Origin: Candidatus Gastranaerophilales bacterium
GTDB taxonomy: Bacteria; Cyanobacteriota; Vampirovibrionia; Gastranaerophilales; Gastranaerophilaceae
Reading direction: 5' to 3'
Assembly (NCBI GenBank): GCA_944326515.1
Contig: CALVEI010000017.1
Location: forward strand, 1 to 36,270
Length of the DNA: 36,270 nt
Part shown: one piece after another, positions 5,674-26,910 of the stretch
How the letters are laid out: every line of letters begins with the position of its first letter
Numbering within the stretch: the first letter of the stretch is position 1
Program-made: the position numbers and the translations under genes
Notes under the pieces: model-generated
Told to the model about the DNA's origin: nothing
Databases searched by the model: none
Seen by the model: only the letters and a program-made list of their open reading frames with translations

Positions 5674-6216
5674 ATGAAAAAATCATTAATTATTGCAGGT
5701 CTCGCTGCAAGTATTATGCTTACATCTTCAATCGCAAACGCTGCCCCAAACACTGTAAAAGCAGATAAACAACAAACAGCTGTAGAAAAGCAAATACCTA
5801 AAAAATGCGACAAAAAAATGAAACGTTCGCCAATTGATGAAAGATTAAAACTTACTGATGAGCAAAAAAAACAAGCTCACGAAATCAGAATGAAAGGTCA
5901 TAAAGAAATGAAGCCTATATTTGACAAGATTAAGGCTAAAAAAGAAGAAATAAGACAAATTGCAGAAAACACAAAACTTACAGAAGAGCAAAAAACTAAA
6001 AAAATAGACGCATTAGAAATTGAAATATTAAAACTTAAACAACAAGCAAGAAAAGTAAGAATTCAAAATGCAAAAGAATTTGAAGCTATCTTGACTCCTG
6101 AACAAAAAGCTGAATTCAATAAAATGAAAGAAGAAGGCAGAAAAATGCACATGATGAAAAAACGTAACGGACATAAAAAACCGGCAAAATTCGACAAACA
6201 AGCTCCTCTAAAATAA
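5674..6216 (+). CDS. Periplasmic LTxxQ-motif protein (Spy/CpxP/CnrX-like)
   Basis: A 180-residue exported protein with signal peptide MKKSLIIAGLAASIMLTSSI..., cut near ANA-AP. The mature part is helical and very Lys/Glu rich, with three LTxxQ-type motifs (LTDEQ near 66, LTEEQ near 108, LTPEQ near 146). A Met/His-rich tail (MHMMKKRNGH) could bind metal. Proteins of this class are periplasmic chaperones or metal sensors that act on a sigma/anti-sigma pair. The gene follows the ECF gene by 14 nt with AAAGGA as ribosome site and ends at a strong terminator, so it is the last gene of the cassette. The inducing signal is unknown. Confidence 0.75.
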   Translation: MKKSLIIAGLAASIMLTSSIANAAPNTVKADKQQTAVEKQIPKKCDKKMKRSPIDERLKLTDEQKKQAHEIRMKGHKEMKPIFDKIKAKKEEIRQIAENTKLTEEQKTKKIDALEIEILKLKQQARKVRIQNAKEFEAILTPEQKAEFNKMKEEGRKMHMMKKRNGHKKPAKFDKQAPLK

Positions 6217-6258
6217 AAAACATACAATACCCGAAAATAAACACTCATAATATTTTTC

Positions 6259-6293
6259 AAGCCTTCCTTATAAATTATAAAGAAGGCTTTTTA
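6259..6293 (+). terminator. Intrinsic terminator of the ECF cassette
   Basis: Stem AAGCCTTC (6259-6266) / GAAGGCTT (6282-6289), extended inward by TTATAA / TTATAA, then a T-rich tract. It lies 42 nt after the LTxxQ gene stop and just before the next promoter. Confidence 0.88.
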
Positions 6294-6308
6294 TTTGTTA
6301 AAATCACA

Positions 6309-6338
6309 TTGACATTGCTATTTTCAGGCAGATATAAT
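6309..6338 (+). promoter_or_regulatory. Consensus sigma-70 promoter for the M48/exported-protein operon
   Basis: Perfect TTGACA (6309-6314), 18-nt spacer, perfect TATAAT (6333-6338). It lies 21 nt before the ATG at 6360, whose GGAGGG ribosome site is at 6352-6357. This rules out any longer start within the box itself. Confidence 0.85.
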
Positions 6339-6359
6339 TGTATTTGGAAGTGGAGGGAT

Positions 6360-7037
6360 ATGAATAGATTTGGAGTTTTTTTAATAGCTCTTTTCTTATT
6401 TTTTACAATAAATCCTATTATTGCAAAAGATTTTTGTACTTCTGAAAATGTATATATTCAACAAAAAATAAACGAAACAGGGTTCAGACTACTTAATTCA
6501 GCTAATTACAATAAAAGAATAACATTTTATTTAGTACCTCAAAATAAAGTCAAAACAAGGATTAACAAAAGAACTAACAGAATATATTTATATCAAGGAA
6601 CTCTAAAGTATATAGAAGATTCTAACGAGCTGGCTGCAGTACTGAGCTTGGATATTGCCAAATTAATGGATTACAAAGCAGGCTTTTTCAGACAATTTTC
6701 AATAAGCTTTTCACCACGCAAATATGAAATTAAAGCTGATAAAAAAGCCGTTGACTTAATGGCAAAAGCAGGATACAACCCTATTGCACTAATAAACTTC
6801 ATTAATAAAACAGCAGAAGAACCTAACTGGTTTGAACACAATATTATGCATCACAAAGGAAAAGAAAGAGCCACATACATTTACCAGTACATTTATGAAA
6901 AATACCCGGCATACATTGCTAACAACAGTTATCTAAAAGATTCGGAATACCAGAATTTTCTCAGAATAACTCCAAAAGCAAGAAAAAAAGTACGCTTTAT
7001 ACAACAAGAGAGAATAAAAATTCAAGATGCGGAATAA
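6360..7037 (+). CDS. Exported M48-like protein lacking the zinc-binding motif (pseudopeptidase)
   Basis: A 225-residue exported protein (signal peptide MNRFGVFLIALFLFFTINPI, cut after IAK or nearby). It aligns along its whole length with the M48 gene at 7918: GFRLLN, KRITFY, IYLYQG, a YE-x2-KAD segment, GYNPIALI and YEKYPAYI all have counterparts there. Where the partner has IIAHEIAHGIEL this one has VLSLDIAKLMDY, so the HExxH zinc site is lost (L97, D98, K101). The E123/D127 pair of the YE-x2-KAD segment is kept. It is therefore probably an inactive paralogue with a binding or regulatory role. The ATG at 6360 with GGAGGG is preferred over an upstream TTG that is part of the -35 box. It is the first gene of the operon and overlaps or abuts the next. 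Confidence 0.78.
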   Translation: MNRFGVFLIALFLFFTINPIIAKDFCTSENVYIQQKINETGFRLLNSANYNKRITFYLVPQNKVKTRINKRTNRIYLYQGTLKYIEDSNELAAVLSLDIAKLMDYKAGFFRQFSISFSPRKYEIKADKKAVDLMAKAGYNPIALINFINKTAEEPNWFEHNIMHHKGKERATYIYQYIYEKYPAYIANNSYLKDSEYQNFLRITPKARKKVRFIQQERIKIQDAE

Positions 7038-7041
7038 CAAT

Positions 7042-7902
7042 ATGAAAAGCATTAATAAAATAATAAGCATAGCAATCCTAGCACTCTATTTTACAAACAT
7101 AGGCGGTCAATTTTGTTTGGCAAAAACACAATATGCAAAAAAAACAGTTTTAAAAGCAACAATAAAAAAAGAAATCAAAAATAATCAACAAAAAACCAAA
7201 TATGAAAGTGAAATAATAGAAGACGAATTGGCCAAAGAAATAGAAGCACAATCAGTGCAAAAAATTAAATATAAAAAACTGGAAATCAAAGACGACGCAG
7301 TCGCACTATTACCAGTGAACGAAAAACAACCACCCAAAATATACCAAGAAGAAATTCTTAATGATGAGAAAGTTGTAACAAGCAAAGCAAACAAGAAATA
7401 TAAAACAACTGATTACATCAAACAAGTAAAAACAGAAAATGGATCTGAGGTCATTTTAAAACCCATAAAAAGAATATCAACCAAAAGTAAAAAAATAAAA
7501 ATAAAAAAAGACACAGGTGAAGAAGAATACAGAGTTCCATTTCCATCAATAGGCGACAAAGTCGCATTTAAAGTGGTTAAGGATGTTATAAAAGATGGAA
7601 AAACAGTTATTCCTAAGGGGACAATTGTATATGCAAGTGTTGGAGAAGTTGCACCAAGAGCAATGGGCGGAGCACCTGCTGAAATGACTCTAGAAAATTT
7701 TGAAATTAAAGACAAAAACGGAAATATTATTCCGTTAGACGGAGAAATAGCAAGCAGCGGATATTCTCTTTCGTTTTGGATAGGATTGGCAGAGCTTGCA
7801 ACTACACCATTTTTATTCGGTCTTGCTGTTCCTCTACTTAGAGTTTTGCCGGGCGGTCAAGCCGTTTTGTCACCTAAAAAAAATTATGTAGTCTATTACT
7901 AA
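7042..7902 (+). CDS. Exported protein with I-P-K-G-T beta domain, function unknown
   Basis: About 286 residues from the ATG at 7042; an in-frame ATG at 7027 would overlap the previous gene by 11 bp and cannot be excluded. It has a signal peptide (MKSINKIISIAILALYFTNI). A Lys-rich, low-complexity region of about 120 residues follows. The C-terminal domain (about 163-240) has the pattern GDKVAFKVVKDV, IPKGTIVYASVGEV and NGNIIPLDGE. The same layout recurs in the gene at 8642 (ILPAGTIAHGTVKEI ... DGREIPIQGN). This looks like an SH3-like beta fold also seen around VirB10/TrbI-type and other periplasmic proteins, but no family is certain. A hydrophobic stretch near the end (FLFGLAVPLL) may be a membrane segment. 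It lies between the two M48 paralogues. Confidence 0.6.
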   Translation: MKSINKIISIAILALYFTNIGGQFCLAKTQYAKKTVLKATIKKEIKNNQQKTKYESEIIEDELAKEIEAQSVQKIKYKKLEIKDDAVALLPVNEKQPPKIYQEEILNDEKVVTSKANKKYKTTDYIKQVKTENGSEVILKPIKRISTKSKKIKIKKDTGEEEYRVPFPSIGDKVAFKVVKDVIKDGKTVIPKGTIVYASVGEVAPRAMGGAPAEMTLENFEIKDKNGNIIPLDGEIASSGYSLSFWIGLAELATTPFLFGLAVPLLRVLPGGQAVLSPKKNYVVYY

Positions 7903-7917
7903 TACAAAGAGGTAAAA

Positions 7918-8592
7918 ATGAAAAAAATACTTTTATTATTCATAACAATGCTGATGTTCTCACAATTTTGTTTAGCAGATGAACTGAGATTAGACAAAGA
8001 TGCACCTTATCAAAAAAAACTAATGGAAATAGGCTTTAGAATTTTAAACGCTAATCGTGTAGATAAAAGAATAACTTTTTACTACAAAAATGATCAGGAT
8101 GTTAATGCAAAAATTCTAAGCAGATCCAAAAAAGTTTACATATACAAAGGCCTTATACCATTTATTGACAATGACGATGAATTTGCTGCAATTATTGCAC
8201 ATGAAATAGCTCACGGCATTGAATTACATGAAGGACTGGCAAGAAGAATTGCTATGAAGTTAAGACCAATCAAGTATGAACAAAAAGCAGACCAGACAGC
8301 GGTTGATTTGCTTGTAAATTCTGGATACAACCCGTTAGGACTTATTATAATACTGAACAAAATATCAGGAGAACCTTGTTTCGCAAGCAGCCGCAGTAAC
8401 GGAACAAAGAGATTAGCAAACATTTATGAATACATCTACAAAAAATATCCAGCATACCTTGTATATAACGACTACAAAAAGAATATTTATTACCAAAATT
8501 TTCTTCTGACTAGCAAACCAGAAAGAGCAAAAATAAGACAAAAATACCAACAAAACAAATTACTACAAGTTAATAAAAAAGAACCTAAATAA
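7918..8592 (+). CDS. M48-family zinc metallopeptidase, exported
   Basis: A 224-residue protein with signal peptide MKKILLLFITMLMFSQFCLA. The catalytic motif is AAIIAHEIAHGIELHEG (H95, E96, H99) and the third zinc ligand lies in YEQKADQTAVDLL (E121), with D125 of the ExxAD signature. Both are as expected for M48/BepA-like peptidases. Known relatives act in the periplasm on misfolded or misassembled envelope proteins; the substrate here is not known. The ribosome site AGAGG is 15 nt after the previous stop, so it is co-transcribed with the 7042 gene and with the inactive paralogue at 6360. Confidence 0.85.
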   Translation: MKKILLLFITMLMFSQFCLADELRLDKDAPYQKKLMEIGFRILNANRVDKRITFYYKNDQDVNAKILSRSKKVYIYKGLIPFIDNDDEFAAIIAHEIAHGIELHEGLARRIAMKLRPIKYEQKADQTAVDLLVNSGYNPLGLIIILNKISGEPCFASSRSNGTKRLANIYEYIYKKYPAYLVYNDYKKNIYYQNFLLTSKPERAKIRQKYQQNKLLQVNKKEPK

Positions 8593-8641
8593 CATTTGTT
8601 ACATACGTGATTTTCTCTTTTATATGGGATAGACTTTTATT

Positions 8642-9817
8642 ATGAAAAAGATATTTACATACATAATATTATCAATATTCTTTCTTACAAACTCGGGTAT
8701 ATGTACAGCTGTAAAAGCTGAACAGTTACCTGTTACAAACAACCCTCAAGTGCAAGAGCCTTCTTCTGACGAAGTATTTAAGGGAAGAGCAGAGGTAACA
8801 AATAAACTCGAAGAAAAAAACAAAGAACTGTTCACAGGAGAAATTGACCAACTAGAAGCCAAAGATGTCATAAAAATGACAGTTTCTCAAGTTTTAAGCT
8901 CCGGTTATACAGAAGAAGGTGATGAATTTTTTGCTGAAATATCTAGTGAGGTAGAAGGTGAAAAAGGAGTCATACTTCCTGCTGGAACTATTGCTCACGG
9001 CACAGTTAAAGAGATTCAAGGTTCTAAACGTCTTGGAAGAGACGGATGGATAGAAGTAAACTTCGATTACCTCATTACTCCTGATGGAAGAGAAATTCCT
9101 ATTCAAGGAAATATGAGCACAAAACTCAATCCGGTTGTTGGTACATCAAAAACGATAGCAAAAAGCGCAGGTTACACAGCCGTAGGCGGTGTTGTCGGAG
9201 GCTTTTTAGCTCTTAACATGTTTGGTTTACCTGCTGCTATAGTAAGTCAAGGCTATACGTTAGCTGGCGGAGCAGCTGTTGGTGGGGCTGTAGGAATGGG
9301 CATAGCTTTATACAGAAAAGGTAAAGATGTTCTAATCTCTCCTGGTGATGAAATAAGAGTAAAAATAACCAAAGCAGTTGATTTACCTGTGTTTAAAAAA
9401 GAAGCGCTTAAACAAGAAGAATTTGTCTGTGACGGATTAAATATTAAAATAACAAACATAAATTTTGAAGAAGACCCTTTCGGAGAAATGAACACTATCA
9501 CAGTTGCTATTGTTATAACAAACCTCACCGACAAATACTTTACTGGATTTGACATATCGATGGTAAATGATCTTAACGCTTCATTTTATCCATCTGTTTT
9601 TGGTGACACTACGTTAATGTTTTCAAAAATAAAACCTGGAGACAGACTTTCAGGTAGAATATCATTTTCAGTAGATAATATAAAAAGAAAACATTGGCTA
9701 GTTATATATGATAGAATGGAAAGAAAACAAATAGCAAAAATCTCAATAGATAATGCAAAGAGAGATTTAAAAGACAAAAAGAATGCAAAAAAGAAAAAAA
9801 AGAAAAAAGATGCATAA
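8642..9817 (+). CDS. Exported multidomain protein: I-L-P-A-G-T domain, glycine-zipper segment, Ig-like domain
   Basis: A 391-residue protein with signal peptide MKKIFTYIILSIFFLTNSGI. Residues about 66-165 repeat the beta domain of the 7042 gene (ILPAGTIAHGTVKEI, DGREIPIQGN). Residues about 175-225 are Gly/Ala rich (VGGVVGGFLALNMFG, GGAAVGGAVGMGIALY), a glycine-zipper or membrane-inserting segment. Residues about 260-365 look like the DUF4352/telokin-type Ig fold (ITVAIVITNLTDKYF, IKPGDRLSGRISFSVD, WLVIYD). The tail is polylysine. No enzyme motif is present. It begins 49 nt after the M48 gene and may belong to the same operon or have a weak promoter (TTGTTA at 8596, TATATG at 8621). Function unknown; structural envelope role inferred. 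Confidence 0.65.
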   Translation: MKKIFTYIILSIFFLTNSGICTAVKAEQLPVTNNPQVQEPSSDEVFKGRAEVTNKLEEKNKELFTGEIDQLEAKDVIKMTVSQVLSSGYTEEGDEFFAEISSEVEGEKGVILPAGTIAHGTVKEIQGSKRLGRDGWIEVNFDYLITPDGREIPIQGNMSTKLNPVVGTSKTIAKSAGYTAVGGVVGGFLALNMFGLPAAIVSQGYTLAGGAAVGGAVGMGIALYRKGKDVLISPGDEIRVKITKAVDLPVFKKEALKQEEFVCDGLNIKITNINFEEDPFGEMNTITVAIVITNLTDKYFTGFDISMVNDLNASFYPSVFGDTTLMFSKIKPGDRLSGRISFSVDNIKRKHWLVIYDRMERKQIAKISIDNAKRDLKDKKNAKKKKKKKDA

Positions 9818-9868
9818 AAAATAAAAAATTGGGTATTATTAAAAAAGAAGCAAAAAAAGGATTATAAG

Positions 9869-10492
9869 ATGACAAAGCAAAACGCATTCACATTGGCAGA
9901 AGTTCTGATCACATTAACTATAATAGGAGTAATAGCAGCACTAACCATCCCTCCACTTATGTTTACGACAGACGAAAAACAAGCAATTGTAGGATTAAAA
10001 AAAGCAATGACAACTCTTGACCAAGCAGTTGATTTGGCTAGAACAGAACCAAAGTTCCAGCCTAACCCTAGATGCTACATCGACAATGAAGGTGGAACAG
10101 ACGTAACAACGGACTGCGAAGAGTTGTTCAAATACATGAAAAACGTAATACAAGTCCAAAAATATTGTGATGGAAATCCTGTAGATGGTGGGTGTATGGC
10201 AGAATATGCAAAAGTAGATAGCTGTGAAGGTTGGGCTGATGTTGAAAAGAAAAAAGCTTTTATAACAACAGGCGGTATGAGCTTCTTTGAATACTCAAAA
10301 GCACAAGGAGCTTCTATAGTTGGTGTAGATACTAATGGGCCTAAAGGACCTAACAAATGGGGATTTGATGTATTTTCTTTAGAGCTGACAGGCAACAAAA
10401 GTACAATGCAAACTTACCAACCTGGCGGTTGTGAATTTGCAGAAAATGGTGGTAAAACTGGTTCCGAATTGCTTCAAGAAAGTGACGAATAG
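9869..10492 (+). CDS. Type IV pilin-like / type II secretion pseudopilin
   Basis: A 207-residue protein with the prepilin signature near its N-terminus: MTKQNA followed by FTLAEVLITLTIIGVIAALT, giving cleavage before Phe7 by PilD, and Glu at mature position +5. The residue before Phe is Ala rather than Gly, as often in this lineage. The C-terminal domain has several Cys (YCDGNPVDGGC, DSCEGW, GGCEFAENGG) that could form disulfides, and a DTNGPKGPNKWGFDVF motif common to pseudopilins of this group. It follows the 8642 gene by 51 nt without a terminator; AAGGA precedes the ATG. Its 3' end overlaps the convergent TIGR02757 gene by 19 bp. The substrate or filament it belongs to is not visible here. 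Confidence 0.85.
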   Translation: MTKQNAFTLAEVLITLTIIGVIAALTIPPLMFTTDEKQAIVGLKKAMTTLDQAVDLARTEPKFQPNPRCYIDNEGGTDVTTDCEELFKYMKNVIQVQKYCDGNPVDGGCMAEYAKVDSCEGWADVEKKKAFITTGGMSFFEYSKAQGASIVGVDTNGPKGPNKWGFDVFSLELTGNKSTMQTYQPGGCEFAENGGKTGSELLQESDE

Positions 10493-11244
10493 GAAACCCC
10501 ATAACCAAACATTGCAAAATCATATTTAACAGGATCTGACGGGTCAAACTTTTTAAGTTGCCCCGTTAATTCTATAACAGCCAAATAATCATTCTGATTT
10601 CTAGACAATAAACCTAATTGACGAGATATTTTAGCAACATGCACATCTAAAGGGATAAGCAATTCAGACTTTGGCATAAATGCCCATACGCCTAAATCTA
10701 CAGAACTTTTCCTAACCATCCAACGTAAAAACATATTCAGTCTTTTACAAGCGCTCTTTTTTGAAGGATTAGGCAAAAGATGATAAAAACCTTTTGTAAC
10801 AGGCAAAGTTACATTTGAATAAAAATAATCAACTACAACTTGCAACATAGCACCAACATCTTTAGATTGCTCCCAACCGTAGGCAAATAAAGCTTCTAAA
10901 GAACGTCCTTCATTGTATAACTTTTTTAAAATTATAATAATTTGCTTTAAATCAATCCCAACAGAAAACCTGTAATCAATATCATCAACTACAGTAGAAT
11001 TTTCATCAAAATTAACGACAAATTCGTATGGTTTATCCCCCATTCTCTCAAATAAAATATTTAATTTAGAAATAAACGCCTCTCTTTTACCATATGCAAA
11101 AACAGAAGCAATAAAAGCAGCAATCTCTATATCTTCTTTTTTTTGATATCTATGAGGAAACTGAACAGGATCATCTCCTATAAAAGCAGGGACTTCATAA
11201 GTTTTAACCAAATCATCCAAATATTCTTTAATTGCAACAACCAT
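10474..11244 (-). CDS. TIGR02757/DUF2400 family protein
   Basis: A 256-residue protein that matches the TIGR02757 (DUF2400) family along its length: DDPVQFPHRYQKKEDIEIAAF near residue 24, FAYGKREAFISKL, then FLRWMVRKSSVDLGVW, IPLDVHVAKISRQLGL, and the closing DPSDPVKYDFAMFGYGV. The family is helical with a helix-hairpin-helix/DNA-glycosylase-like look, but its biochemical role is not established. It is 3 nt downstream of tadA and probably co-transcribed with it. The ATG at 11242-11244 overlaps no other gene. The 3' end overlaps the pseudopilin gene by 19 bp. Confidence 0.85.
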   Translation of the reverse strand: MVVAIKEYLDDLVKTYEVPAFIGDDPVQFPHRYQKKEDIEIAAFIASVFAYGKREAFISKLNILFERMGDKPYEFVVNFDENSTVVDDIDYRFSVGIDLKQIIIILKKLYNEGRSLEALFAYGWEQSKDVGAMLQVVVDYFYSNVTLPVTKGFYHLLPNPSKKSACKRLNMFLRWMVRKSSVDLGVWAFMPKSELLIPLDVHVAKISRQLGLLSRNQNDYLAVIELTGQLKKFDPSDPVKYDFAMFGYGVSYSSLS

Positions 11245-11247
11245 AAA

Positions 11248-11682
11248 TTACTTTCTCATGTTTCTAAAATAAGTACTCAAAAGCTCATCACATTCTTGTT
11301 CTAATATTCCACCTTTAAAAGACAATCCAGAACTACACTTTTTAACAAGCTCAGGCATAGTTGTAAATGCACCATATAAAGAATCAAAAGACCCAAAGTA
11401 CAAATTATCTATTCGAGACTGCAATATAGCCCATGCACACATTGGACAAGGCTCTAGTGTAACATACATATCGCAACCATTTAATCTCCAAGTACCAAGC
11501 TTTTGAGACGCTTCTTTTAACACTAACATCTCGGCATGAGCAGTTACATCATTATTTTTTTCTTTTTGATTATGCAAGCAAGAAATAACTTCTCCATTCT
11601 TAACAATAACAGCCCCTACAGGTATGTCATCACCTGACAAACGAGCCATTTCCAAAGCTTTTTGCATAAATTTGACGTCCAT
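11248..11682 (-). CDS. tadA: tRNA-specific adenosine deaminase TadA
   Basis: A 144-residue cytidine-deaminase-fold enzyme that converts A34 to inosine in tRNA-Arg(ACG). The zinc site is HAE (H49, E51) and PCPMC (C79, C82), and IPVGAVIV precedes it as in TadA. Length is normal for the family. ATG at 11680-11682. It is the first gene of a two-gene unit with the TIGR02757 gene. No tRNA-Arg is in the window. Confidence 0.95.
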   Translation of the reverse strand: MDVKFMQKALEMARLSGDDIPVGAVIVKNGEVISCLHNQKEKNNDVTAHAEMLVLKEASQKLGTWRLNGCDMYVTLEPCPMCAWAILQSRIDNLYFGSFDSLYGAFTTMPELVKKCSSGLSFKGGILEQECDELLSTYFRNMRK

Positions 11683-21111: not shown

Positions 21112-24100
21112 ATGCTTATACAAGGCAGCTGCAAAAGCGACAGAACAAACCTACTAATACAAAAATATACGGATTTGCTCAACTGTGGTATTGAGGCAAA
21201 CAAAATTCTTGTGCTTGTACAAAACTCCTACAAAAAAAATCAATTCATTACAGAAGTAAAAAAACTACTAAAAATTCAGCATTACGAAGAGCCTCAAATA
21301 CACACATTTTACGGTTTAATTTACAACACAATACTAAATTTTTGGCCTATAATCCAAGACACAATAAACATTGGAGAAAACGTTGTTACTCCAAATCTTA
21401 CGGGTCTTGAAATTTCGCAATTTTTCTTTAGACAAGCAGTTAAAGAAGCAGGTTTTAGCGATTATAACTCAAAGATAAACTTAATCCACCAGATGTTTAG
21501 AAGGTACTCGCTTATAGTAAATAACGTCCTTTCTGAACAAGATGTGGAAAAACGTTCACAAATACTTAAAGAAGTATTTGCCACAGACGCAAAATCAGCA
21601 ATAGAAAATTACAAGAAAAAGACTCTCGAATACAGAACATTTGACTATATAAGACAAGCTGCAGTATTTAGTTATATCTACAAAAAGCATAAATGTTTTA
21701 AAGATATACAATACCTTATAATTGACGATACAGACGAAATAACAACACTTGAACTGGATTTTATAAAGAGCATAAAACCACAACTTAAAGAAGCTATTAT
21801 AGGATATGACAAATACGGTTCAAGCAGAATAGGTTTTCTAAACACTGACACTCAAGCTGTTAAAGAAATTGAAAAAACTTTTTCAAACGAAGAAACAGTT
21901 AACCTTGATAACATAGATAATTTCACACCACAAGTAGAACACAATGACTGCTCAAGACGTTTGGAAATGTTAAATAAAACTGCTGAGAAAATATCAGAAC
22001 TTATAAAAAACGGAACATCACCGGATGAAATAGCTATAATAACACCAATTATTGACACAACATTAAAATTCACATTTGAAGAAGCATTTTTACCGCAAAA
22101 TATAAAAATTTCATATTATTCCGGTAGCGAAAAGCTTAAAGATACTCCGCTAGTAAAAAACATACTAACCGTTTTAAATATATCTTTAGGTGTAGAAACA
22201 GATGTTTTTAGCGTAAGGTCTGTACTAAACAATATGCTAAAAATCCCTGTAAAGTATTGCATGCCTGTCATCGTGAAATATAAAGAAACAGGTTCAATAC
22301 AAGCTACAGAATTTGAAAACCCGATTTATACAGAAGTAATAAAAAGGCTTAAAGGGACAATAGACCAAATAACAAACGACCAAATAACCTTGTCTCAAAA
22401 GACATTTGAGATATACAAAAACCTTGTCAATCCAAACTTTGATGAATTTTACCAGCTTGAAAAAGTGAACTTTTTTATAAAACAAATACAAGACTTTGAA
22501 AATGTTTTTCACAACCAAAAATGCAACCAAGCATTACAAAAAGCAATCTTAAACCAGCTTGAAAACTCAATTATATCTGAAAACCCTGCTTTTGCCCCCG
22601 AAATAGAAGAAAAATCAATAATTGTTGCAACAGCACAAAAAATAATAGATTTTTCACTAAAAACAAAATACCAATTTTGGCTTGATATAAGTTCCTCCGA
22701 GTGGACAAAAGAGGATATGGGTACTCTTTATAATGCGTGGGTGTTTCAAAAGTCTTGGAATAAAGAAGAATTTACTTATGAAGACAGTATTGAACTTGCA
22801 AAACTAAAGACAAAAAAACAGTTACGCAAACTTTCTTTATTAGCGCAAGAGAAAATTTATGCGGACTCTAGCCTTTTTGATACAGAAGGTAATGAAAACT
22901 TTGGCGGCATAGAAGAATACATACTGCCTAAAGAAAAACAAACAAAAGACTTTGATTTTAAATTCACCCCCCGTGACGACCAAAAGCCTGTTCTGGAATA
23001 TAAATCCGGGAATATGGCTATATCTGCAGTGCCGGGAGCGGGAAAAACAACAATACTTCTTGCACTGATAATAAAACTTCTATCTGACGGGGTACAAAGT
23101 GACAACATATTTGTTATGACATATATGGATTCAGCAGCCAAAAACTTCAAAGAAAGGATTAAAAAAGCTTGTCCAAACCTTGAAAAAATGCCTAATATTT
23201 CGACAATCCACGGACTTGCATTAAGAATTTTAAAAGAGAACTCAAATTATCTTAGAGTTGGGCTTAATGCTGATTTTGAGGTTTGTGACGACAACCTCAG
23301 ACAAAAAATCATTAGAGAAATTATGTCAAAACTTCAAATTGACCAAAACGAGTTTGATCGCTATGACAAAGCTATATCAGCACTAAAACTTTCTGACGTA
23401 AAAGAAATCCCCTACGTCAAAGACAAGGAAATCTTTCTTTTCATAAAATTTTACAACGCCTATAACAACTACCTAAAAAGCAGAAACATTATAGACTACG
23501 ATGATATGCTTTCATATTGCGTAAAAATCCTTGAAGAAAACAAAGACATAGCAGAATATTACCAAGATATCTGTCACTACGTTATAGAAGACGAGGCTCA
23601 AGATTCATCTGTTATTCAACAAAAACTACTGTCACTTTTATGCAAAAAGCATAAAAACCTCATTCGCTGTGGAGATATAAACCAAGCAATCACAACAACT
23701 TTTACAAACGCAGACTTGGAAGGGTTTAAAACATTCATATCAAACAGCAACAACGTATCAATGAACCGTTCTCAAAGATGTTCAAAAGATGTTTATCAAA
23801 CAGCAAACAAACTTATAGACTTTTCTAAAACTGACGAAAACCTAAAAAATTCGTTTTTCGACATAAAAATGAACGAAGTTACAGGAAAAAACCCTGTAGT
23901 TACTAACGGATTAAATGTACAAACATTCGACAATTACACAGAAGAAAATAACTACCTTCTGGAACAAATAAGAAATATATTTAATAAAGACCCAAAAGCA
24001 AGTATCGCTATACTTGTAAGGAACAACTACATAATTGAGGAGTATTCTCAATTTTTAGGACAATACGGTTACAACGTAATAACAAAAAGCGACTGTCTTA

Positions 24101-24936
24101 AAAACCAACCTGTGTTTGCGTTAATACTTGCTCTGCTAAAATTCTGCTCTCACCCTTGGAATAATGAAACAGTCTTAAACGTAGCGGAAACAATTAAACA
24201 ACAAAAGATTTTAAAAATAAAAAACGAAGATTTACAGTTTATAAAAGATTTAAAAACACCTTTTATATTGCAAAAAGCAGACGAAACAGAAAGTTCACAA
24301 CTATCACAACTGTTGTGGGACTTAAACTACTGGCTTGAAAACACACATCTTACAATAGAAGAAACTGTAGTAAAAATGGGAAATTATTACTACAACACAG
24401 ATGTAGAAAAATCAAATATCTACATAATAGCTACACTGCTAAAGAGAATGGAAAGCCAATACAAAACACACGATATCTTACTTGAAAGAATTGAAGAGCT
24501 TTCTCAACGTCCTATACTTAGCAAATTCAAATTCTTTACAGATACAGAAGAAAAGTCAGACCTTAAAGAATCTTCTATACAAATAATGACATACCACAAA
24601 TCAAAAGGTGACGAATTTGATTATGTGTTTATCCCAGGACTAAGCGAAGAAATACTGCCAATAGACTTAAATCAAATAAAAATTAAATCAAAAGAGCGTT
24701 TTATAGAAGCAGTAAAAAGCTTAAACTTAAAATACAAGAAAAAAGATGAGCAAGAGCTTAAACAATTTATTGCACAAGAAAACTTAAGACTTTTCTACGT
24801 AGCAATAACAAGAGCCAAGAAGAAACTCTACATAAGCTGTGCTAAAAAATACAAAAAATATTCAAGACTAAAAGATACCCAAATTTCGCTTTTGTTCGAC
24901 AATATGCTTTTAGGAGAAAAAAATGCAAACAAATAA
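21112..24936 (+). CDS. Tandem UvrD-type helicase: inactive N-terminal half fused to active C-terminal half
   Basis: 1274 residues. The C-terminal half is a complete superfamily 1 helicase: motif I VPGAGKTT (K645), DEDEAQD-like motif II IEDEAQDSS (about 825-833), motif V TYHKSKGDEFDYVF (1160-1173) and motif VI LFYVAITRAKKKL (R1234). The N-terminal half (about 1-600) repeats the same order in degenerate form: GSCKSDRT (5-12) in place of GxxGxGKT, IIDDTDEITTLE (203-214) in place of DDAQD, an FYGLIYNTIL segment, IAIITP and SYYSGSEKLKDTPLV. So it seems a dead helicase joined to a live one. In AddAB the dead helicase is in AddB and the live one in AddA. The ATG at 21112 follows GGAGAG, and the nuclease gene overlaps its end by 14 bp. 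Confidence 0.85.
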   Translation: MLIQGSCKSDRTNLLIQKYTDLLNCGIEANKILVLVQNSYKKNQFITEVKKLLKIQHYEEPQIHTFYGLIYNTILNFWPIIQDTINIGENVVTPNLTGLEISQFFFRQAVKEAGFSDYNSKINLIHQMFRRYSLIVNNVLSEQDVEKRSQILKEVFATDAKSAIENYKKKTLEYRTFDYIRQAAVFSYIYKKHKCFKDIQYLIIDDTDEITTLELDFIKSIKPQLKEAIIGYDKYGSSRIGFLNTDTQAVKEIEKTFSNEETVNLDNIDNFTPQVEHNDCSRRLEMLNKTAEKISELIKNGTSPDEIAIITPIIDTTLKFTFEEAFLPQNIKISYYSGSEKLKDTPLVKNILTVLNISLGVETDVFSVRSVLNNMLKIPVKYCMPVIVKYKETGSIQATEFENPIYTEVIKRLKGTIDQITNDQITLSQKTFEIYKNLVNPNFDEFYQLEKVNFFIKQIQDFENVFHNQKCNQALQKAILNQLENSIISENPAFAPEIEEKSIIVATAQKIIDFSLKTKYQFWLDISSSEWTKEDMGTLYNAWVFQKSWNKEEFTYEDSIELAKLKTKKQLRKLSLLAQEKIYADSSLFDTEGNENFGGIEEYILPKEKQTKDFDFKFTPRDDQKPVLEYKSGNMAISAVPGAGKTTILLALIIKLLSDGVQSDNIFVMTYMDSAAKNFKERIKKACPNLEKMPNISTIHGLALRILKENSNYLRVGLNADFEVCDDNLRQKIIREIMSKLQIDQNEFDRYDKAISALKLSDVKEIPYVKDKEIFLFIKFYNAYNNYLKSRNIIDYDDMLSYCVKILEENKDIAEYYQDICHYVIEDEAQDSSVIQQKLLSLLCKKHKNLIRCGDINQAITTTFTNADLEGFKTFISNSNNVSMNRSQRCSKDVYQTANKLIDFSKTDENLKNSFFDIKMNEVTGKNPVVTNGLNVQTFDNYTEENNYLLEQIRNIFNKDPKASIAILVRNNYIIEEYSQFLGQYGYNVITKSDCLKNQPVFALILALLKFCSHPWNNETVLNVAETIKQQKILKIKNEDLQFIKDLKTPFILQKADETESSQLSQLLWDLNYWLENTHLTIEETVVKMGNYYYNTDVEKSNIYIIATLLKRMESQYKTHDILLERIEELSQRPILSKFKFFTDTEEKSDLKESSIQIMTYHKSKGDEFDYVFIPGLSEEILPIDLNQIKIKSKERFIEAVKSLNLKYKKKDEQELKQFIAQENLRLFYVAITRAKKKLYISCAKKYKKYSRLKDTQISLLFDNMLLGEKNANK

Positions 24937-25591
24937 TGCACAAACATATACACTCTCAAAATTGCAAATGTATGACGAATGCCCTCAAAAGTACAAGTTA
25001 TGCTACATAGATAAAGTACATATTGCAGAGCTAAACACTCAAACACAAACAGGTAATAACCTGCATAATATAATAAATTATTACCTCAAAGGAATGGATG
25101 TAACAAAGCTTATCGAAGCACTTCCACCAAGCGATAAAGCTCTGTGGCACAATTTTAAAACTAACGAGATAAAAAACTACAAAATAGTTGAAAGTGAATA
25201 CGCCTTCAACTTAAAGATTGATGAGCATTGGCTAACGGGAAGAATCGATGCCCTTTTTGAATTTGACGGAAACTATATAATTTTAGACTGGAAAACAGGC
25301 TCAAGCTTTACCCCCGAAAATGTGAAATTTCAAACCAAGTTCTATCTTGTATGCTTGTATGAAATATTAAAACTTAAAAAGCTTATCAACACCCCAGAAG
25401 AACTTTCAATGCAATATCTAAACCTTGCAACTAACAGTAAAATAAAAATACCTTTTGATAGTGATTTATACATAAACTACAAAAAAGAAATTTTAGAAAT
25501 AATAAGAAAAATCAACAAAAGTACAACATACTTTTGCAACAAAAAAGACACATGCAAATATTGCAAATACTATAGGGCCTGTCCGTTTTAA
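24923..25591 (+). CDS. PD-(D/E)XK nuclease with Fe-S cysteine motif (AddB/Cas4-like)
   Basis: A 222-residue nuclease of the PDDEXK_1 superfamily. The N-terminus LSKLQMYDECPQKYKL is the RecB-nuclease start motif. The metal and catalytic residues are H48, D109 in GRIDALFEFDGN, D122 and K124 in IILDWKTG, and the QxxxY motif is Q137-Y141. Four cysteines C20 and C212-x2-C215-x5-C221 match the spacing of the iron-sulfur staple of AddB (and of Cas4). The ATG at 24923 has AGGAG upstream and overlaps the helicase gene by 14 bp, so the two are made together. A Cas4 role is unlikely because there is no CRISPR array or cas gene. It lacks its own helicase domain, so it is much shorter than AddB. Confidence 0.85.
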   Translation: MQTNNAQTYTLSKLQMYDECPQKYKLCYIDKVHIAELNTQTQTGNNLHNIINYYLKGMDVTKLIEALPPSDKALWHNFKTNEIKNYKIVESEYAFNLKIDEHWLTGRIDALFEFDGNYIILDWKTGSSFTPENVKFQTKFYLVCLYEILKLKKLINTPEELSMQYLNLATNSKIKIPFDSDLYINYKKEILEIIRKINKSTTYFCNKKDTCKYCKYYRACPF

Positions 25592-25630: not shown

Positions 25631-26278
25631 ATGCAAACTTTGTCTAATATATCTTTTAAATCAAGAAACAGCCTCGTAAAAGACGCAGGATTGGTGTGTA
25701 GAAAAGTAAGAACAGCATTCCCTTACGTTTCCCACGCAAAAGCTGCTCACGAAGCAAGCCCTGAAATATTAAAAAATAAAGATATAGTAAACTTTATCCT
25801 CAAAAGAGAAAAAACACTAAAAGAATACAGAGAAGACCAAAGACATATCCAAAAACCTTTCAACCGCTACAAAGAAATACTATACTGCGCAATAAAAGAA
25901 AAACTTGCTGCCTGCTATGACCTTTCTGTACTGACAGAACTTGTTTTACGTCTCAACGGAATCAAAAACTGTACAAAAGTGTCTCTAACTAATGCAGAAG
26001 GAAAACTTCTTAACCATAGTGCAGTAATTGTAAAAACTAGCAACAACCCTAAAAAAAATATAATCATTGACCCTTGGTTGCAAGACTGCGGATTGGAATC
26101 AGAAATGCTCACAAAATACAAAAGTATTTATGCGAAATATTTCAGAAAATTGTCCCCAAATGACAAAATAGAGCTGATACTTCGCCCGCAAGAAAAGCTA
26201 TCACAAGAAGAAATTAATTATTTTAAAGAAAAATATCCAGAACTAATAATAAACAAAGCTCTTTTCACAAAAGCATAA
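25631..26278 (+). CDS. Candidate transglutaminase-like Cys-His-Asp protein
   Basis: A 215-residue protein that I cannot place in a named family. The spacing of C95 (KLAACYDLSVLTELVLRLNG), H129 (GKLLNHSAVIVK) and D147 (NIIIDPWLQDCG) is that of the Cys-His-Asp triad of transglutaminase/papain-like folds, with a hydrophobic helix after Cys and a beta strand before Asp. There is no signal peptide; NISFKSRNS near the start is a phrase seen in several short proteins of this lineage. No clear ribosome site precedes the ATG at 25631, and it starts 39 nt after the nuclease gene, so it may be translated by read-through coupling. A role with the helicase-nuclease pair is possible but unproven. Confidence 0.5.
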   Translation: MQTLSNISFKSRNSLVKDAGLVCRKVRTAFPYVSHAKAAHEASPEILKNKDIVNFILKREKTLKEYREDQRHIQKPFNRYKEILYCAIKEKLAACYDLSVLTELVLRLNGIKNCTKVSLTNAEGKLLNHSAVIVKTSNNPKKNIIIDPWLQDCGLESEMLTKYKSIYAKYFRKLSPNDKIELILRPQEKLSQEEINYFKEKYPELIINKALFTKA

Positions 26279-26340: not shown

Positions 26341-26910
26341 CTAATCCAAGTAGAATGCAGTAATAACTTTGTGAGATTCTTCCGCATACTCAATAGCTTT
26401 GTGCAAAGTATTTGAAGTATGTGACAAGAAACATATCAACTGCTGACAGTCATCGATAATCTCTCTGTTACAAATGCGGCTGGCATCTGCAAGAGTCATC
26501 ATAGCTCTGTCAGAGTGTTCAATAATGTTAGGAACACCAATCAACTGATCTTGTACGTCAGAAGGTTGCTGACCAATAGTCTGAGGTAAAATAACTTTCA
26601 ATTTATCAGGGTTAGACTTCATTGCCCCTCTGATAGTTGCAGCGTTAGTACCTGAAGAACCACCTGACGTAATGATTGTATTACCTTGAGCAACCAGTGC
26701 ATAAGATAACGTTTCAATAATTTGTTGGTGAGTAATCGGCAAATTACGACTGCCGATAATAGCAATTCTCTTAGCAGACTGTTGTATCGTAGCAAGCTCC
26801 ATAGCAAGCTGATCTACAGTGTTTGCTTCATCCTCAGGAACCTTATCAAGGTCATCTGTAGGAACCATAATCGTAGGTTGTTCTTGTTTTTCTTGGTTTT
26901 CGTCTGACAT
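26341..26910 (-). CDS. DprA/SLOG-type Rossmann protein
   Basis: A 189-residue protein. After an acidic N-terminus of about 45 residues it has the Rossmann nucleotide or DNA site of DprA/SLOG proteins: RIAIIGSRNLPITHQQII (48-65), NTIITSGGSSGTNAATIRGA (77-96), KVILPQTIGQQPSDVQ and CQQLICFLSHTSNTL. It is about half the size of full DprA and lacks the winged helix. Cyanobacteria carry similar short proteins annotated as DNA recombination mediator A. Full DprA loads RecA during DNA uptake, but for a short relative nucleotide-ligand sensing is also possible. It is transcribed alone and divergent from pcrA. ATG at 26908-26910. Confidence 0.7.
   Translation of the reverse strand: MSDENQEKQEQPTIMVPTDDLDKVPEDEANTVDQLAMELATIQQSAKRIAIIGSRNLPITHQQIIETLSYALVAQGNTIITSGGSSGTNAATIRGAMKSNPDKLKVILPQTIGQQPSDVQDQLIGVPNIIEHSDRAMMTLADASRICNREIIDDCQQLICFLSHTSNTLHKAIEYAEESHKVITAFYLD

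Follow-up and report, generated by a model that had tools for sequence, protein, structure and literature searches.

Two overlapping genes of a Candidatus Gastranaerophilales bacterium, which encode a dead and a live helicase module in one chain and a stand-alone Fe-S nuclease, are likely to be a three-part DNA-end-processing machine in its fused form, similar in its working to AddAB, AdnAB and RecBCD. The genes lie in the 36,270-nucleotide stretch of DNA analysed here, which we refer to as the window (contig CALVEI010000017.1 of assembly GCA_944326515.1). On balance, we favour the broader view that a dead SF1A module, a live SF1A motor, an Fe-S nuclease and, often, RecJ constitute a further, unrecognised class of bacterial presynaptic helicase-nuclease, which would be ancient, would occur in several phyla and would do the work of the missing RecBCD/AddAB in most cyanobacteria and their relatives, and whose dead subunit has no Pfam or NCBIfam model of its own. 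The machine's probable task is to make broken DNA ends ready for repair, both in many other bacteria and in most cyanobacteria, which are without the textbook enzyme for it.

Three parts encoded by two overlapping genes

The original prediction, made from the sequence alone, listed a dead helicase, a live helicase and an Fe-S nuclease as the parts of the system and let the nuclease gene overlap the helicase gene by 14 bp. Both reading frames are there, with the helicase ORF at 21112-24936 (plus strand, 1274 aa) sharing its last 14 bp with the nuclease ORF, and the parts list holds, given that residues 1-612 of the helicase protein are inactivated, residues 613-1274 are live and the nuclease follows as a separate product (Table 1).

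Table 1. Features of the helicase and nuclease genes, in positions of the window.
Feature	Position	Strand	Basis
Inactivated UvrD-like (SF1A) module, residues 1-612; analogue of the AddB/RecC helicase-like domain	21112..22947	+	AF2, VIA, hhalign
Relic Walker A GSCKSDRT, residues 5-12, Lys to Arg	21124..21147	+	
Degenerate motif II DDTDE (205-209), replacing DExQD	21724..21738	+	
Live UvrD-like SF1A motor, residues 613-1274	22948..24933	+	PF00580 162 bits, PF13361 96 bits
Live Walker A AVPGAGKT (639-646)	23026..23049	+	
Live motif II EDEAQD (826-831)	23587..23604	+	
AGGAG, RBS-like, for the nuclease; 6 nt before its ATG, within the helicase gene	24912..24916	+	sequence
Fe-S type PD-(D/E)XK nuclease, stand-alone, 222 aa	24923..25591	+	ORF, Pfam, AF2 model
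C20, first predicted Fe-S ligand	24980..24982	+	
H48, catalytic-core His, invariant	25064..25066	+	
D109, metal ligand	25247..25249	+	
D122-W-K124, DxK motif	25286..25294	+	
Q137-Y141, QxxxY motif	25331..25345	+	
C211-x2-C214-x5-C220, other predicted Fe-S ligands	25553..25582	+	

The AF2 model of the dead half (pLDDT 89.7) has a whole UvrD fold, with VIA Z scores of 22-29 to UvrD/PcrA, AdnB and AddB (UvrD, Z 28.9, 506 residues aligned at 8.6 A; AdnB, Z 24.0, 572 at 4.5 A; AddB, Z 22.5, 563 at 5.2 A) and Foldseek TM scores, taken by query length, of about 0.59-0.66 to AddB/AdnB and about 0.53-0.59 to UvrD. Its profile aligns colinearly with PcrA (E 4e-6) and matches, end to end, stand-alone proteins of about 680 aa from cyanobacteria and relatives (hhalign probability 100, E 2.6e-71, 620 columns). 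Residues 1-612 alone gave no Pfam or PADLOC match, and the dead-helicase family as a whole has no NCBIfam match and, in Pfam, matches UvrD or DEAD models just weakly; its members are annotated as 'hypothetical protein' or 'UvrD-helicase domain-containing protein'.

Motif II shows the inactivation, its catalytic Glu being gone from 47 of the 48 homologues aligned, which come from several phyla. Walker A of the dead half has decayed in the window's family; the sister orders and most of the order's other families keep it intact (GxxxSGKT). The sole homologue to keep the motif II Glu (VDELEK; L296, 4005-6011) may be an active or intermediate form. In the live half, all motifs are intact in 49 homologues, save truncated ORFs, and the two halves are conserved almost equally (for example, 59/65% and 46/54% identity, dead versus live).

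In Pfam, the nuclease scores 68.5 bits with PDDEXK_1, for which the cut-off is 22, and 29.9 bits with Cas_Cas4. The D...DxK...QxxxY active site of PD-(D/E)XK RecB/Cas4-like nucleases is present in the window's protein and in its homologues across the class, and H48, D109, D122, K124, Q137 and Y141 are invariant in all 47 of them, which speaks against chance and bears out the initial description of D109, D122, K124 and Q137-Y141 as intact. As to the cysteines, C20 and the spacing stand, and the last three are C211, C214 and C220 rather than 212, 215 and 221. The CxxC-x5-C spacing is common to AddB, AdnA, Cas4 and Dna2; the iron-staple spacing first ascribed to AddB is thus real, but not AddB-specific, and by itself is no pointer to AddB.

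The four Cys are retained in nearly all homologues, with the third shifted by two positions in some rows of the alignment. One clade of four genomes (L117-L120, that is, G042, G057, G024 and G047) is without the four Cys and the C-terminal tail and keeps all catalytic residues, a natural Fe-S-less version of the nuclease. Of the sequence evidence here, this joint loss speaks most strongly for the four, as predicted ligands of a 4Fe-4S cluster, acting as one unit. The AF2 model of the nuclease (pLDDT 92.5) is closest in VIA comparisons to the AdnA nuclease domain (Z 17.8, 2.9 A over 209 residues); ACE1 (Z 16.4) is also among its best matches, and the AddB nuclease domain (Z 13.9, 3.2 A over 216 residues) and Cas4 chains (Z 11-12) score lower.

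A conserved operon, fused in one lineage

The pair of fused helicase and nuclease is found nearly order-wide in Gastranaerophilales and also in other orders of the class. Among 99 relatives, 78 have the nuclease and 80 the helicase's N-terminal half; four have the helicase only, two the nuclease only and 17 neither. A conserved two-gene neighbourhood had been named as a check on the prediction, and it is there, in that 76 of the 99 relatives have both genes, which overlap in 32 of the 35 pairs found on one stretch. The architecture had also been called unusual, which for this group it is not: nearly all Gastranaerophilales have the fusion, and all fused forms fall into one clade (100/98) in a maximum-likelihood tree built from 53 motor sequences, which gives the fusion a single origin. 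In four genomes (L137 and L138, from G037 and G033, and also G049 and G026) the fused dead-live helicase is present and the stand-alone nuclease was undetected; G037 also has a two-nuclease AddAB. Given these four relatives without the nuclease and the one clade without Fe-S ligands, neither is strictly essential.

Profile searches identified stand-alone homologues of the dead half, roughly 650-770 aa long, in other Cyanobacteriota. Two genomes (G109 and G132) have an overlapping operon in the order dead helicase, live helicase, nuclease, and such an unfused, overlapping operon occurs in Sericytochromatia, Chloroflexota, Bacillota, Latescibacterota, Gemmatimonadota and Rhodothermota. When named genomes were scanned with the profile of the live helicase, matches came from Gastranaerophilales, Sericytochromatia, Chloroflexota, Latescibacterota, Gemmatimonadota, Atribacterota and Bacillota, the last represented by Halanaerobium, Halonatronum, Fuchsiella and Desulforadius. 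At 62 loci with an unfused motor, the dead helicase adjoins in 35 and the nuclease too in 26 of these 35, while several of the other loci end at contig edges; at most dead-live and live-nuclease junctions, the neighbouring genes overlap by a few bases. Among window-type loci, no single chain was found that combines dead helicase and nuclease. The ancestral form is likely to have been the three-gene operon seen in several phyla.

In most photosynthetic cyanobacteria the three genes are dispersed and RecC is lacking; the partnership of the three there is predicted by homology only. An ORF of 687 aa beside one cyanobacterial nuclease (L245) matched none of the helicase profiles.

On the 56-kb plasmid pSR56 of Salinibacter ruber M8 (L348, 5938-13821), a dead helicase annotated as 'hypothetical protein' is followed by an ATP-dependent helicase, a PD-(D/E)XK nuclease and recJ, and this plasmid copy of the operon with recJ suggests horizontal transfer. 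A solitary dead-helicase homologue, annotated as 'UvrD-helicase domain-containing protein', is found at 6001-7974 of pILYOP01 from Ilyobacter polytropus (L347), a Fusobacteriota replicon. A viral or phage origin was considered and rejected, there being no match to viral contigs and no phage match for the dead half.

Linkage to recJ and coexistence with known end-processing systems

In 13 of the 28 unfused loci with room for it, recJ is the next gene after the trio or the next but one, and it also adjoins the trio in G132. Its identity was confirmed by Pfam DHH/DHHA1/RecJ_OB matches in ten loci and by TIGR00644 scores above the cut-off in all four loci tested. Beside the fused form, no recJ was present in the cassettes examined. 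The adjoining recJ is a link between the trio and DNA-end processing that owes nothing to likeness in fold.

In the window, the neighbours are housekeeping genes (those for IF-2, TruB, a PurD-like protein and PcrA), and neither defence genes nor Cas1/Cas2 were found among the window genes scanned. Directly after the nuclease, the ORF at 25631-26278 (plus strand) has a marginal match to the transglutaminase-like DUF553, and a 189-aa ORF between the nuclease gene and pcrA (26341-26910, minus strand) has a weak DprA-type match (DNA_processg_A), just below the cut-off.

The window's genome (98% complete) encodes four UvrD-family proteins. Its contig C9 (L004, C9:20000-36000; 6340-11361) holds recA, a GNAT gene, an AddB-like gene (860 aa, with a nuclease) and an AddA-like gene (812 aa, without one). 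This AddA groups at 100/100 with the full two-nuclease AddAs of relatives, and its C-terminal nuclease domain was therefore lost. The genome thus has two one-nuclease machines, the trio pair and the C9 AddAB-like pair, the second of which, standing by recA, makes the system there at least partly redundant. The original prediction had proposed to look for a genome-wide absence of addA, addB, recB and recC, which is borne out for RecC (PF04257), without a match in this or any other sampled genome of the window's class, but not for AddAB. What had been named as weakening the prediction, a canonical addAB or recBCD elsewhere in the genome, is thus present in part.

True AddAB coexists with the system in relatives as well. 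In at least 12 relatives of at least 90% completeness (for example, G027, G028, G031, G038, G043, G048, G050 and G056), the window-type nuclease is the only PDDEXK_1 match, where 'only' is provisional, as the search misses some divergent nucleases. Single-chain UvrD-Cas4-like fusions of about 1018 aa (L342-L344) represent a third helicase-nuclease type among the relatives; these PDDEXK_1 proteins were examined as possible AddBs and rejected, since they are UvrD-Cas4-like fusions and form their own clade.

Across the phylum, the dead-helicase profile matches 320 of 386 genomes, about ten of them weakly (E 1e-6 to 1e-3), and these weak matches may be PcrA cross-matches. RecC (PF04257) is found in 62 of the 386. 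Of these, 57 belong to one family with genomes of 1.6-3.7 Mb and are all without a dead-helicase match; the other five, outside that family, have both. In one member of the family, RecC is followed by RecB and then by what is presumably recD, a gene with a Walker A motif. A 2016 review (PMC5101192) reports recBCD in marine Prochlorococcus/Synechococcus and finds recB, recC or recD missing from model cyanobacteria, and on the basis of this report we take the family to be marine Prochlorococcus/Synechococcus and their kin. Dead helicase and RecC are near-complementary in Cyanobacteriota, a pattern that rests mainly on one family and hence perhaps on one replacement event.

It seems unlikely to us that the pair serves a helicase-nuclease task other than recombinational end resection, such as fork repair, the degradation of foreign linear DNA or plasmid control. 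Such a task would fit with the coexistence of AddAB in the window's genus, the plasmid copy in Salinibacter and the loss of the nuclease in some relatives, whereas the recJ linkage in many lineages, the housekeeping context in the window, the near-universal vertical presence in the order and the complementarity with RecC all argue against it.

The motor lineage is separate from AddA and RecB

The pair was initially read as AddAB divided differently, with one nuclease instead of two. The single nuclease was confirmed, and the derivation from AddAB, by which addB and addA would have been fused head to tail and the AddB nuclease split off, is in our view quite improbable. The parts are those of AddAB minus AddA's nuclease, the gene order corresponds to addB-addA, the dead half superposes on AddB and the nuclease superposes on the AddB nuclease domain. 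However, the system's motors form one group in the tree (100/98), which includes those of photosynthetic cyanobacteria and lies apart from PcrA, the C3 UvrD, AddA (that of the window's own genome included), RecB and the UvrD-Cas4-like fusions, and the three-gene form exists in several phyla. In addition, the alignment of the dead half with the live half of the same protein spans its full length (E 2e-19, 594 columns), that with AddB just part of it (E 1e-8, 341 columns, with an AddB profile of three sequences), and relatives hold true AddAB besides. That the nuclease is a solo Cas4, related to CRISPR or defence and located behind the helicase gene by chance, is highly improbable, since its TIGR00372 cas4 score of 52 bits is under the cut-off of 65 and its Pfam Cas_Cas4 and PADLOC Cas4 matches are set against a helicase that is its constant neighbour in several phyla, a fold nearest to the AdnA nuclease rather than to Cas4 chains, and window genes scanned without a defence gene among them.

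Proposed mechanism and significance

Parts, folds, conservation and linkage look like those of an end-processing system, as had been predicted, and we infer its activity, together with complex formation, polarity, the strand cut, scanning and biological role, by analogy. In the proposed three-part machine, the live SF1A motor would load at a DNA end and translocate 3'-5', the direction in which SF1A helicases move. The tracked strand would pass through the inactivated module, which would act as a scaffold and possibly as an ssDNA scanner; in AddB and RecC the inactivated helicase fold scans ssDNA for Chi, and a single SF1A motor drives AddAB (PMC4824097). The Fe-S nuclease, held to the dead module by protein contacts rather than by a covalent linker, would cut the emerging strand, and RecJ would degrade the 5' strand to leave a 3' tail for RecA.

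The main-text passages of Hudaiberdiev et al. (2017; PMC5704561) that deal with unfused UvrD and Cas4-like genes describe a predicted operon in several bacteria, mostly Clostridiales, in a non-defence context and perhaps for DNA repair. This operon probably includes the live helicase and nuclease part of the trio, and in the same passages an inactivated helicase, recJ and a cyanobacterial system go unmentioned. In our literature search, neither the three-gene nor the four-gene operon was found described. Rocha et al. (2005; PMC1193525) concluded that many recombining bacteria have none of the presynaptic proteins known and that there may be systems yet to be discovered, and the operon is a concrete, testable candidate for such a missing presynaptic system. 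Moreover, one-nuclease machines whose motor, scanner and nuclease genes are separate, fused, dispersed or without Fe-S ligands form a natural series with which to dissect the evolution and control of AddAB-type enzymes.

Comparison with known helicase-nucleases

The system resembles AddAB of the Bacillus type in that an inactivated SF1 module, one live SF1A motor and an Fe-S RecB-family nuclease are encoded by adjacent genes. It differs in having one nuclease rather than two, in the separation of that nuclease, in the fusion of dead and live modules in the window's lineage, and in a motor that is without a nuclease domain and falls outside the AddA clade. The inactivated helicase and the Fe-S nuclease, which AddB unites in one chain, are products of separate genes, and the C-terminal nuclease and lineage that mark AddA are absent from the motor, which scores 114 bits with TIGR02785 (cut-off 708).

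With mycobacterial AdnAB the system shares two UvrD-like modules; the AdnA nuclease domain is the nearest nuclease fold, and AdnB is among the best global matches to the dead half. AdnA and AdnB each carry a C-terminal nuclease, so that both chains are motor-nuclease fusions, whereas here one nuclease stands alone. Similar to RecBCD, there is one nuclease, one inactivated SF1 module (as in RecC) and an SF1A motor (as in RecB), but no RecD-like second motor was seen and the RecC family PF04257 is not in the genome.

ACE1 (Argonaute-associated Cas4 family protein, PDB 9IAB/9IAC) is likewise a stand-alone cyanobacterial PD-(D/E)XK protein. A profile search had raised these two entries as orthologues of the nuclease; they were rejected as such because they are ACE1 and not close. 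With one cyanobacterial orthologue as the query, phmmer found no PDB match, and ACE1 is therefore probably another subfamily. By the features tested, the system is outside AddAB, AdnAB and RecBCD; it is probably a new class, of a kind of machine already known.
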